NCBI RefSeq assembly: GCF_000799075.1
Contig: NZ_JTLI01000113.1
Coordinates: forward strand, 11,573 to 49,555
Reading direction: 5' to 3'
Source of the DNA: Cetobacterium sp. ZOR0034
Lineage (GTDB): Bacteria; Fusobacteriota; Fusobacteriia; Fusobacteriales; Fusobacteriaceae
DNA: 37,983 nt
The translations under genes and the position numbers were made by a program. The notes below the pieces were generated by a model. It saw only the letters and a program-made list of their open reading frames with translations. It was not told where the DNA came from and searched no databases. Shown piece by piece: positions 11,641-37,931 of the stretch (positions within the stretch are counted from its first letter, which is position 1; the number at the start of each line of letters is the position of its first letter).

Positions 11641-11672
11641 AAAGCACTAGAATTTTTTAATCCTAGTGCTTT
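11641..11672. terminator. Hairpin between emrB-like gene and S24 repressor gene
   Basis: Bases 11641-11650 pair exactly with 11663-11672 around a 12-base loop. The stem covers the stop codon of the minus-strand repressor gene. The minus-strand transcript then reads into a T-rich stretch, so it fits as a terminator for that gene; on the plus strand no T-run follows. Confidence 0.65.
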
Positions 11673-12358
11673 CTTCTACTCTCTATAACTGCTCCATGAC
11701 ATTTTAAATATTCTAAGTCTTCTCCTGATATAACTATATCAGAATATCTCTTTTTATCCAAATTGTCTGAAGTTAGCCTTATCTCATCTCTTTTTATTTT
11801 AACTCTTTTTATATATGTTTGGTCATGGTAATTTAAAACACAAACTTTCCCATCTATACTTTCTATCTCCTTCTTCAACGGATTAATAATTACTAAATCA
11901 CCATCCGAAAGTGTGGGAAACATCGAATCACCACTTACTTCTACCATAAAAGCATTCTTAGGAACACCTGTATTTGGAATAGAAGTTAGCAACTCCATTC
12001 TTGTGTTATCTTCGAAATTTGCATGTCCTAAACCTGCCGCAGCTTTTCCAAGGACAGGTAATGAGATTATCTGTGCTTTCTTTTCCTCTTTTAATACTAC
12101 AGATTCCTCTAATTTCTTTTTTATTAAATCTGGAGTTCTATCATAAGCAATAACATACCTTATCTCATCAGCCTCTTTTTCTGAAGATATAAATTTTTCT
12201 ATAAATCTCTCTATAAAATCATCCTTTGGAATCCTAATTCCTTTACGGTAATGTCCGACTACAGATAGAGAAGATTCCGTTTGCTTTGCTACATACTCTA
12301 AGGTATAATTATTTTTTATCATAAATTTTTCTAAATAAATACCGAATCTTGTCTTCAC
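11663..12358 (-). CDS. CI/LexA-like repressor: XRE helix-turn-helix plus S24 self-cleaving peptidase
   Basis: 231 residues. The N-terminal helix-turn-helix is about residues 6-45. The C-terminal S24 domain holds the expected autocleavage elements: Ala108-Gly109 in KAAAGLG as likely scissile bond, Ser145 in GDSMFPTL as nucleophile and Lys184 in YIKRVK as general base. Such repressors cleave themselves when RecA is activated by DNA damage. The gene is divergent from a 43-codon gene. The intergenic region holds three TACA-N4-TGTA sites, one over its own predicted -35, so autorepression is likely. No other phage genes are adjacent, so this could be a domesticated phage repressor or the host's LexA analogue. 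Confidence 0.9.
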   Translation of the reverse strand: MKTRFGIYLEKFMIKNNYTLEYVAKQTESSLSVVGHYRKGIRIPKDDFIERFIEKFISSEKEADEIRYVIAYDRTPDLIKKKLEESVVLKEEKKAQIISLPVLGKAAAGLGHANFEDNTRMELLTSIPNTGVPKNAFMVEVSGDSMFPTLSDGDLVIINPLKKEIESIDGKVCVLNYHDQTYIKRVKIKRDEIRLTSDNLDKKRYSDIVISGEDLEYLKCHGAVIESRRKH

Positions 12359-12385
12359 TTCTTCCTCCCATCGCTCTTTTTTATC

Positions 12386-12414
12386 ATTATACTATTTTTC
12401 TACAAAAATGTAAA
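12386..12414 (-). promoter_or_regulatory. Predicted promoter of the S24 repressor gene
   Basis: On the minus strand TTTACA (12409-12414) and TATAAT (12386-12391) are 17 bases apart. Operator-like site 1 (12401-12412) covers part of the -35 and the spacer, consistent with autorepression. Confidence 0.6.
12401..12412. promoter_or_regulatory. Operator-like site 1, TACAAAAATGTA
   Basis: Perfect TACA-N4-TGTA inverted repeat, with a C before the left half. It overlaps the predicted -35 of the repressor promoter. Confidence 0.55.
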
Positions 12415-12421
12415 AAAATAT

Positions 12422-12450
12422 TTGATTTTTTTTCTACATTAAAGTATAAT
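12422..12450 (+). promoter_or_regulatory. Predicted promoter of the 43-codon gene
   Basis: TTGATT (12422-12427) and TATAAT (12445-12450) are separated by exactly 17 bases. Operator-like site 2 lies between and partly over the -10, the position expected for repression by steric block. Confidence 0.65.
12435..12446. promoter_or_regulatory. Operator-like site 2, TACATTAAAGTA
   Basis: Matches TACA-N4-TGTA at seven of the eight half-site positions (A instead of T at the first base of the right half), also preceded by C. It sits in the spacer and -10 of the plus-strand promoter. Confidence 0.5.
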
Positions 12451-12489
12451 TCTATTAGATAATTTTTATATTTTTTTATTTTTCACTTG

Positions 12490-12501
12490 TACAATTATGT
12501 A
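12490..12501. promoter_or_regulatory. Operator-like site 3, TACAATTATGTA
   Basis: Perfect TACA-N4-TGTA inverted repeat, followed by G, so its complement also reads CTACA-N4-TGTA like sites 1 and 2. It lies in the leader of the 43-codon gene, 25 bases before the start codon. Confidence 0.5.
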
Positions 12502-12526
12502 GAAGAATCTAAGGAGGGGAATTTTA

Positions 12527-12658
12527 ATGAGATTTAAAAGAGTTTCTAATCACTTTTGGAGAGTTGAATCTAATGGTATTCTTATTGTTGGAACTTGGGA
12601 GCAATGTCAAAAAGAGCTTCATAATTTATGCTTAGATAAATATCTTTTAAAAAATTAA
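12527..12658 (+). CDS. Small protein (43 residues) divergent from the S24 repressor
   Basis: 43 codons from ATG to TAA. It has an excellent ribosome binding site, AAGGAGGGG at 12511-12519, and a consensus promoter with an operator-like site inside it. The start is MRFKRVSNHFWRVESNG, followed by a hydrophobic ILIVG and a charged, helical C-terminus with two cysteines (C27, C35). It has no signal peptide and no family I recognise. It occupies the cro position of a phage-type switch, but I see no clear helix-turn-helix. It could be an SOS- or damage-induced small protein controlled by the adjacent repressor; this is inference from position only. Confidence 0.75.
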   Translation: MRFKRVSNHFWRVESNGILIVGTWEQCQKELHNLCLDKYLLKN

Positions 12659-12732: not shown

Positions 12733-13413
12733 ATGATTTTTGGTGAAAAAATTAAAATCAATTTTGAAAATATAGAGAACGGAACTAAGCTAACTATTTC
12801 AAATTTTCCAAAAGGAGTTACTATTACAGCTTTAGATTTTGGAAAAGATTTAGCTAAAAGGACTATGGAAGGATATTCTCCAAATCCACTTGAAGAGATT
12901 GATGTTATATCTGGTATAAGTGAAGAAACTACTACTGGTGAAGATATCACTTTCATATATACTCACGGAGATTTTATCTCTAGTATAATTCTTGTTGGAG
13001 CTCTTTGTAAAAAACTTCTTCAGTCTATTCCAACTGTCACTCCTCTTGAAATTGGCGGAATTTTCCATGGAGAAAAAAATGAAGCCTATATCAGAGTTGC
13101 TATTCAAAAGATGGTTATTACAAATGATGCACTTGGAAGCTCTCTTGAAATAAATCTTCCTTTCAATACAAACATGAATCTATTTAAAAATAGATTTTCT
13201 AATATAGCTTTCTCTTTAATTCCAGAAGTTCAAGCTATACAATTTGGACTTGGAACTGCAATATCTAAAAAAGCTAACTCTAATTTAGGTACAATCCCTA
13301 AAAGAGTAGAGGTTTCTTTTGCCCCTCATGAAGAAAGTAAAATTCCTGCTTTAGCTCTTGTTTACGATATAGTTTTTGAAAGTCTAGCAGTATTTACTTT
13401 AGTTAATTTATAA
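12733..13413 (+). CDS. Unrecognised cytoplasmic protein, 226 residues
   Basis: The start at ATG 12733 is chosen because GGAGG at 12723-12727 is its binding site; an upstream TTG would bury that site. No signal peptide or membrane helix is evident. The composition is mixed alpha/beta: an N-terminal beta-like part (GTKLTISNFPKGVTITALDFG), a central ISSIILVGALCKKLLQSIP helix, then alternating strands. I do not recognise a domain or catalytic motif. A TATATA with an upstream TG (12688-12696) may be its own extended -10. It lies between the repressor switch and glutaminase with no clear operon partner. Confidence 0.8.
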   Translation: MIFGEKIKINFENIENGTKLTISNFPKGVTITALDFGKDLAKRTMEGYSPNPLEEIDVISGISEETTTGEDITFIYTHGDFISSIILVGALCKKLLQSIPTVTPLEIGGIFHGEKNEAYIRVAIQKMVITNDALGSSLEINLPFNTNMNLFKNRFSNIAFSLIPEVQAIQFGLGTAISKKANSNLGTIPKRVEVSFAPHEESKIPALALVYDIVFESLAVFTLVNL

Positions 13414-36806: not shown

Positions 36807-37931
36807 ATGAAAGTTGTTACATACCTTAGAGTTTCTACAGAAATGCAAAAAGATAGAGGTTCTCTTGAAACACAAAGAGAATCTCTAAATGAATACTGTA
36901 AAAAAAATAATCTTAATATAATTGATAGCTTTGAAGATGTTATGTCTGGAGGTATAGCCGATAGAGATGGTATCTTAAAAATAATGGCTATGTTACCTTT
37001 GAAAAAGTTTGAAGGTGTTGTTGTTCAAAACTCTGATAGAATATCACGAGACTTTAAAGATGTAACTCTTTTCTTCAACGATTTTAGAAAACATAATGTT
37101 AGATTAATTTCAGTTATGGAAGGCCCTTTGGATTTTAGAGACGATAATACAGATGCAATGGCTAAAATAAGACTTATCTTCTCTGAAATGGAAAGAAGAA
37201 AAATGAGGATAAGAACTAAAGTTTCTATGGCAGCCTTAGCTAATACAGATAGGTATCTTGGTGGTGGTCTTCTACCACATTTTAAAGTTAAAATTATTAA
37301 TAAAGAGAAAAAAATTGTTAAAAATGAAGAAACCTGGGATTTAGAAAGACAAAAGTATTTAGATATTTTAAAATATAGAAGTTTTAAAAAAGTTGCAGAG
37401 CTTTACTGCATTAATTATTCTACCTTTTTAGAGCAAGTAAGAAAAGTTGAATTAATCGGACACCGAATGTTCGGGGAGTTTATTAAAGACCCTTATACAC
37501 TAAAAAAGGTTAAAAATAAAGATCCTTTTATCTCCAGTAAAAAAGTTTTACCTGCTCTACTTACTGATGAGGAATTTAATCTCATAAATGCTTTGTTAAA
37601 AGATAATAGGAAAAAATTTAAAAACCCTAAAAGAAAATATTTATTTTCTGGGCTTCTCTACTGTAGTTGTGGAAAGAAATTTGCAGGAAATATTGTTAGT
37701 AAAAAAACTAAAAGTTATTACTATTATAGGTGTGAAGGATGTAAAGTTTTCTATAATGTTGATAAATTGGAAATTAATATAAAGAATGCTATTCTGTCTC
37801 ATCCTCATCTAAAATTGCTCAATGATACAACTTTTAGACTCCAGGATCTGCAAGATAAAATTGAACTTGAAAATAAAAAGTTAGAAGATTTAATGAAAAG
37901 ACAAAGAGATGTTTATTGTAAAATAAAATAG
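36807..37931 (+). CDS. Serine recombinase of the large (integrase) type, short C-terminus
   Basis: 374 residues. The N-terminal resolvase domain (about 1-145) begins YLRVSTE with nucleophile Ser10 and Arg8, and includes QNSDRISRD and the SEMERRKMRIRTK helix. A recombinase (PF07508-like) domain follows (about 150-260). A zinc ribbon has Cys pairs CSC and CEGC around 289-318. A short coiled coil (about 345-370) ends the protein. Large serine integrases usually continue for 80 or more residues past this coil (450-600 total), so the C-terminus may be truncated or this is a compact family. It probably catalysed integration into the EAL gene. Confidence 0.9.
   Translation: MKVVTYLRVSTEMQKDRGSLETQRESLNEYCKKNNLNIIDSFEDVMSGGIADRDGILKIMAMLPLKKFEGVVVQNSDRISRDFKDVTLFFNDFRKHNVRLISVMEGPLDFRDDNTDAMAKIRLIFSEMERRKMRIRTKVSMAALANTDRYLGGGLLPHFKVKIINKEKKIVKNEETWDLERQKYLDILKYRSFKKVAELYCINYSTFLEQVRKVELIGHRMFGEFIKDPYTLKKVKNKDPFISSKKVLPALLTDEEFNLINALLKDNRKKFKNPKRKYLFSGLLYCSCGKKFAGNIVSKKTKSYYYYRCEGCKVFYNVDKLEINIKNAILSHPHLKLLNDTTFRLQDLQDKIELENKKLEDLMKRQRDVYCKIK

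Follow-up and report, generated by a model that had tools for sequence, protein, structure and literature searches.

Why would a bacterial genome keep a self-cleaving, phage-type repressor that faces a single very small gene across an array of operators, when no other phage gene stands beside it? Such a locus lies in the stretch of DNA analysed here (the window, 37,983 nucleotides of Cetobacterium sp. ZOR0034), and a sequence-only reading had offered two answers: a domesticated, damage-inducible switch with a new small effector, or the lineage's substitute for LexA. Judged from comparative sequence evidence, the locus is real, conserved and phage-derived, and our results favor the first answer over the second.

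The repressor gene (11663..12358, minus strand, GTG start) encodes a 231-residue CI/LexA-like protein with a predicted N-terminal helix-turn-helix (HTH) and an S24 autoprotease. The Pfam S24 peptidase domain (PF00717) was matched at E=4e-19, over the cut-off. The HTH_3 match at the N-terminus was weak (E=0.004, below the Pfam gathering score); the PHROG transcriptional repressor family phrog_4, however, matches residues 1–230 and, like the prophage alignments described below, covers the N-terminal HTH region. A profile of the repressor aligns with the LexA and UmuD structures over the second half of the protein. The predicted cleavage site (Ala108-Gly109) and catalytic residues (Ser145 and Lys184) are invariant across 10 repressor homologues, down to 37% identity. 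The S24 domain and these residues together place the protein, as far as prediction goes, in the S24 self-cleaving (CI/LexA-like) type, as the sequence-only reading had supposed. RefSeq names it “LexA family transcriptional regulator” in two complete C. somerae genomes. Against the curated LexA model TIGR00498 it scored 38 bits, below the cut-off of 110.95.

The small gene (12527..12658, plus strand), preceded by the Shine-Dalgarno sequence AAGGAGGGG at 12511..12519 on the same strand, encodes 43 residues. It had been described as unlisted, which is true of the gene list from which that description was made; in C. somerae, RefSeq annotates it as the hypothetical protein WP_023052390.1. In all ten repressor-bearing genomes the ORF adjoins the repressor divergently, with a length of 36–43 residues, and every species pair shows more synonymous than non-synonymous change, in most cases 3- to 10-fold more or beyond. 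Kept in 10 species with so marked a deficit of non-synonymous change, the small ORF is a real coding gene under purifying selection.

An AlphaFold (AF2) model of the small protein is a compact beta-beta-beta-alpha fold (pLDDT 84). Searches of Pfam, curated families and PHROG gave neither a family match nor an HTH match, a fold search of the PDB and viral folds gave no significant match, and the best VIA-align rows (COMM domain, PUR repeat and PC4) had Z values of 2–3, too weak to use. In phage records the protein found no match, or only matches at chance level, and a first alignment found nothing in IMG/VR; an alignment of the prophage type found two contigs there. The prophage homologues share 18–30% identity with the protein in the window, with Lys4, Trp11, Gly17, Gly22 and Cys27 invariant. 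The small protein thus appears to be a member of a new family that is also present in prophages, in keeping with the earlier description of it as new and without an obvious HTH.

The two genes are separated by 168 bp containing two back-to-back promoters of consensus type, each with a 17-bp spacer, which bears out the layout first proposed. The repressor promoter (12386..12414, minus strand; −35 TTTACA at 12414–12409, −10 TATAAT at 12391–12386) is nearly invariant in nine species, and the small-gene promoter, which is PL-like (12422..12450, plus strand; −35 TTGATT at 12422–12427, −10 TATAAT at 12445–12450), is invariant or near-invariant in nine. Three putative operators lie across them where the sequence-only reading had placed them: O1 (TTCTACAAAAATGTAAAA, 12398..12415), which is conserved and covers the repressor −35; O2 (TTCTACATTAAAGTATAA, 12432..12449), which overlaps the small-gene promoter across its spacer and the larger part of its −10 and is invariant in nine species; and O3 (TTGTACAATTATGTAGAA, 12487..12504), which lies in the small-gene leader and is recognizable in most species but missing in one (G005). 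All three fit the motif TTNTAC-N6-GTANAA without mismatch, and the prophage operators fit it too. From one −10 element to the other, O1 included, the sequence is almost invariant in nine species, while the flanks vary. The basic description, an S24 repressor facing a coding 43-codon gene across three motif-matching sites, is thereby confirmed, and several putative operators spread across divergent promoters are what a CI/Cro-type switch displays.

The window is AT-rich, and the motif as first formulated is common there on its own (14 matches with at most one mismatch in the whole window, against 8.6 expected); a cluster of three such sites in 168 bp arose in 0 of 3000 order-1 random versions. 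TTNTAC-N6-GTANAA has three matches in the window, all in this intergenic region, against 0.18 expected, and never more than one site in 20,000 order-1 random intergenic versions, figures that are somewhat favorable since the motif was widened after the window and prophage sites had been viewed together. For that reason, the comparison with prophages is better support for the operators than the motif statistics.

Repressor orthologues with 55–90% identity are present in 10 of 12 Cetobacterium genomes (the window's own counted), and in these 10 species the repressor, the operator core and the small gene are kept together; the 43-codon ORF was accordingly found beside the repressor, as its divergent neighbor, in 10 of the 12. 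Since two species (G001 and G008) lack the switch, the genus can do without it. In the draft genome G011 the repressor is broken into two matches separated by a gap, perhaps by an insertion. The locus lies on a 664–705 kb secondary replicon in two complete C. somerae genomes. A serine site-specific recombinase is resembled by an ORF at 36807–37931 of the window, ∼24 kb from the switch.

In all 10 genomes the small gene lies between the repressor gene and a gene for 226 residues; outside this trio the genes differ. This third gene (12733..13413, plus strand), the next downstream of the small gene, encodes a chorismate-synthase-like protein (Foldseek match to chorismate synthase at E=1e-12, TM up to 0.79, ∼15% identity) and is missing in the same two species that lack the switch. 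The 74-bp gap between it and the small gene holds a conserved TATAAT, its own −10. The gene may also be transcribed by read-through from the small gene, and so is only a possible further output of the switch. The protein reaches only about two-thirds of AroC's length, and relatives possess a full-length AroC-like frame in addition; the family of the shorter protein is found in several Fusobacteriaceae genera.

The origin of the locus is indicated by prophages of related bacteria. The closest phage repressor found, in prophage IMGVR_UViG_649633056_000003 (L179), shares 55% identity with the window repressor over residues 1–76 and 29% beyond. Its divergent region contains three operators of the TTNTAC-N6-GTANAA motif, one with a single mismatch, and the 34-bp spacing of the pair closest to the repressor matches exactly that of O1 and O2 in the window. 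This region fronts a leftward early operon comprising a 65-residue ORF, a YqaJ exonuclease, RecT, xis and int. The contig probably comes from Ilyobacter polytropus, since the operator coordinates of its sister contig 000002 are the same as those of the Ilyobacter pILYOP01 prophage, which has three exact motif matches with the same 34-bp spacing. In pILYOP01 (L183, 8343–8598), further operators flank a rightward HTH gene, an arrangement consistent with an OR region.

A related repressor type and operator array thus stand before a leftward recombination operon in genuine prophages. Given this related repressor and three-operator region, with its 34-bp spacing, in front of the Ilyobacter leftward operon, the locus in the window is best read as an orphan left-immunity region (CI, OL/PL and one leftward early gene) of a temperate Fusobacteriaceae phage. 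Neither a rightward half nor any other phage gene adjoins it and it is kept in 10 of 12 species, which agrees with the proposal that it is domesticated. The CI/Cro geometry proposed earlier holds insofar as this is a phage-type CI switch, but the prophages place the small gene at the left operator region and not at the position of Cro. A Cro identity for the small gene was considered and rejected: the protein has no HTH and a beta-beta-beta-alpha model, and its family goes with other operators.

The 43-residue family is the first leftward gene before YqaJ, RecT, xis and int in two Cetobacterium prophages (L081 and L082) and in the two IMG/VR contigs (L098 and L099). Its partner repressors there are of other types, all of them S24 proteins. 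The switch regions of L081 and L082 lack the TAC-N6-GTA motif and have other palindromes instead, and our prophage and IMG/VR searches found no Cetobacterium phage with the TAC-N6-GTA operator type. In these sequences, then, the family goes with the leftward early operon rather than with any single repressor or operator. That pattern speaks against both a Cro and an antirepressor specific to one repressor, and is still compatible with binding to the S24 domain that all partners share. In all four elements the operon continues after the small gene with a ∼25-residue hydrophobic ORF and then a 77-residue protein with cysteine pairs, both conserved between prophages. L081 and L082 are inserted directly beside dinB (DNA polymerase IV).

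Sequence comparison establishes the parts of the switch, how they are conserved, and that prophages share the architecture. By analogy with the established biochemistry of CI and LexA, a repressor dimer would bind O1–O3; occupied O2, over the −10, and O3, in the leader, would hold the small-gene promoter off, and occupancy of O1 would limit the repressor's own synthesis. RecA filaments formed upon DNA damage would trigger self-cleavage of the repressor at Ala108-Gly109 and release a burst of small protein, with repression returning as the repressor recovers. Induction of the small gene by damage is proposed on the strength of this analogy, and the residues that it needs are invariant. The small protein may, somewhat more speculatively, be the dedicated output, acting on a host or general target and not on these operators. 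The most likely explanation is therefore a domesticated RecA-triggered switch whose beta-beta-beta-alpha product would either be an effector or modulate S24 repressors. Our first choice for its role is an early host-modulating function, for example one that briefly slows growth, division or nuclease activity. To the reading as a whole, a domesticated orphan left-immunity region with a RecA-triggered repressor and the small protein as its dedicated output on a host or general target, we assign a probability of roughly 0.6. We advance more tentatively, as something that may well prove otherwise, the broader idea that the members of the 43-residue family are early phage proteins induced by damage and directed at a host target (or modulators of S24 repressors in general), and that Cetobacterium has turned one copy, together with a phage left operator, into its single-output DNA-damage circuit.

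A role as the lineage's LexA substitute, commanding a wide DNA-damage regulon, would suit a repressor with LexA-type cleavage residues in a genus where none of 12 genomes has a LexA above the curated cut-off. Matching sites, however, are absent upstream of recA in all 12 genomes and upstream of uvrB (the uvrA upstream region was left out), no DNA-repair promoter is among the motif matches of the host genome, and no intergenic match precedes any polymerase gene there, error-prone polymerases included; the sequence-only reading had suggested looking for sites at recA, uvr and umu-like genes. The motif occurs at 10 places in the host genome versus 14 for a control pattern, with clustering only at this locus, and matches elsewhere lie inside genes except for one at nrdD and one intergenic match without a nearby downstream gene start. 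These scans detect only sites close to the motif, and weaker operators may escape them. The nrdD promoter (L065 2749–2766; G000 C44:79247) carries a conserved dyad, TTTTACAN4TGTAGAA, over its probable −35, with NrdR-box-like repeats further upstream, and was at first promising as a second target. The dyad is conserved in most species, but it is kept in the repressor-less G008 and its left half is broken in the repressor-bearing G003 and G005; since its presence does not follow that of the repressor, it is better read as promoter conservation, and we judged nrdD a promoter coincidence. With matches at chance outside the locus, and the switch itself absent from two species, we reject a LexA-like regulon as highly improbable; the predicted regulon is local to this locus.

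The main rival concerns the small protein, which might be a partner of the repressor: a corepressor or, like the phage smORFs, an antirepressor, adjusting repression or cleavage through contact with the S24 domain. In each of the 10 loci, as in the prophages that carry a homologue, its gene diverges from that of an S24 repressor, and a partner that is always S24 would fit binding to a shared domain. Precedents exist in DdrR, a genus-specific small protein divergent from the S24 repressor UmuDAb in a LexA-less genus (PMC11332147), and in gp7, a small phage protein that binds LexA (PMC4551915). The family nevertheless follows the leftward operon across different partner types and operators, L179 has the same operators with an unrelated 65-residue ORF as its first leftward gene and no family member, and a pair that tuned only itself would have no output, given the lack of a wider regulon. 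We consider this rival unlikely, although it is the one to be taken most seriously. Retention for immunity, in which the repressor silences incoming phages with TAC-N6-GTA operators and the small gene is incidental, would explain why the repressor and operators persist with no other regulon, and phages of related bacteria with such operators do exist. It leaves the purifying selection on the small ORF unexplained, however, the phages with this operator type that were found are not from Cetobacterium, and the DNA-binding domains of the window and phage repressors differ by 45%; we hold it to be distinctly improbable. The disappearance of all other phage genes from the neighborhood could also point to a decaying remnant without function, but the locus is intact in 10 species, the small gene is under strong purifying selection, and the operators hardly vary and the catalytic residues not at all, which leaves that reading with very little probability.

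On the preferred reading of a domesticated switch, the left-hand half of the controls of a virus switch has become part of the ordinary gene set of Cetobacterium, whose members live in fish guts. The locus documents a minimal piece of such a switch (repressor, left operator and one tiny gene) retained by a bacterial genus, and offers, within the Fusobacteriota, a damage-response candidate that can be tested in a genus whose genomes yielded no canonical LexA. Because one phage early small protein stands here apart from its operon, what it does can be examined in isolation.

A literature search on LexA in Fusobacterium and prophages in Cetobacterium found nothing on this locus, but several known systems resemble parts of it. 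The left immunity region of the Ilyobacter prophages has a related repressor, three operators of the same motif, the 34-bp spacing and a leftward operon, although these are full prophages and their first leftward gene is not of the 43-residue family. Phage TF-smORF pairs likewise have a small protein divergent from a regulator, in phages with a self-cleaving CI, but there each smORF is turned on by its own transcription factor and goes on to inactivate CI, whereas here the divergent regulator is the repressor (PMC10432266). The gp7 protein of phage GIL01 is similar by description and not by sequence: it is small, phage-encoded and devoid of any known DNA-binding domain, and belongs to a switch controlled by an S24 repressor; it differs in binding and acting on the host LexA (PMC4551915). 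In Acinetobacter, UmuDAb and the small divergent corepressor DdrR also combine an S24 repressor with a genus-specific small protein, divergently arranged around a common control region in a genus that lacks LexA, but the pair controls error-prone polymerases genome-wide, and no other targets were found here (PMC11332147). DicA and the dicB promoter of the Qin cryptic prophage of E. coli, an orphan lambdoid locus controlling the small division inhibitor DicB (PMC10448788), differ in three respects: DicA lacks the Ala-Gly cleavage site and the repressor here has the cleavage residues; Qin keeps the Cro-like DicC and this locus has no Cro; and DicA drives a longer operon with an sRNA, while the small protein here matched no family searched. 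The two nonetheless share an orphan immunity locus kept in a bacterial genome, with a repressor acting on a PL-like promoter, three operators and a small protein, which in the case of DicB acts on the host (PMC10448788).
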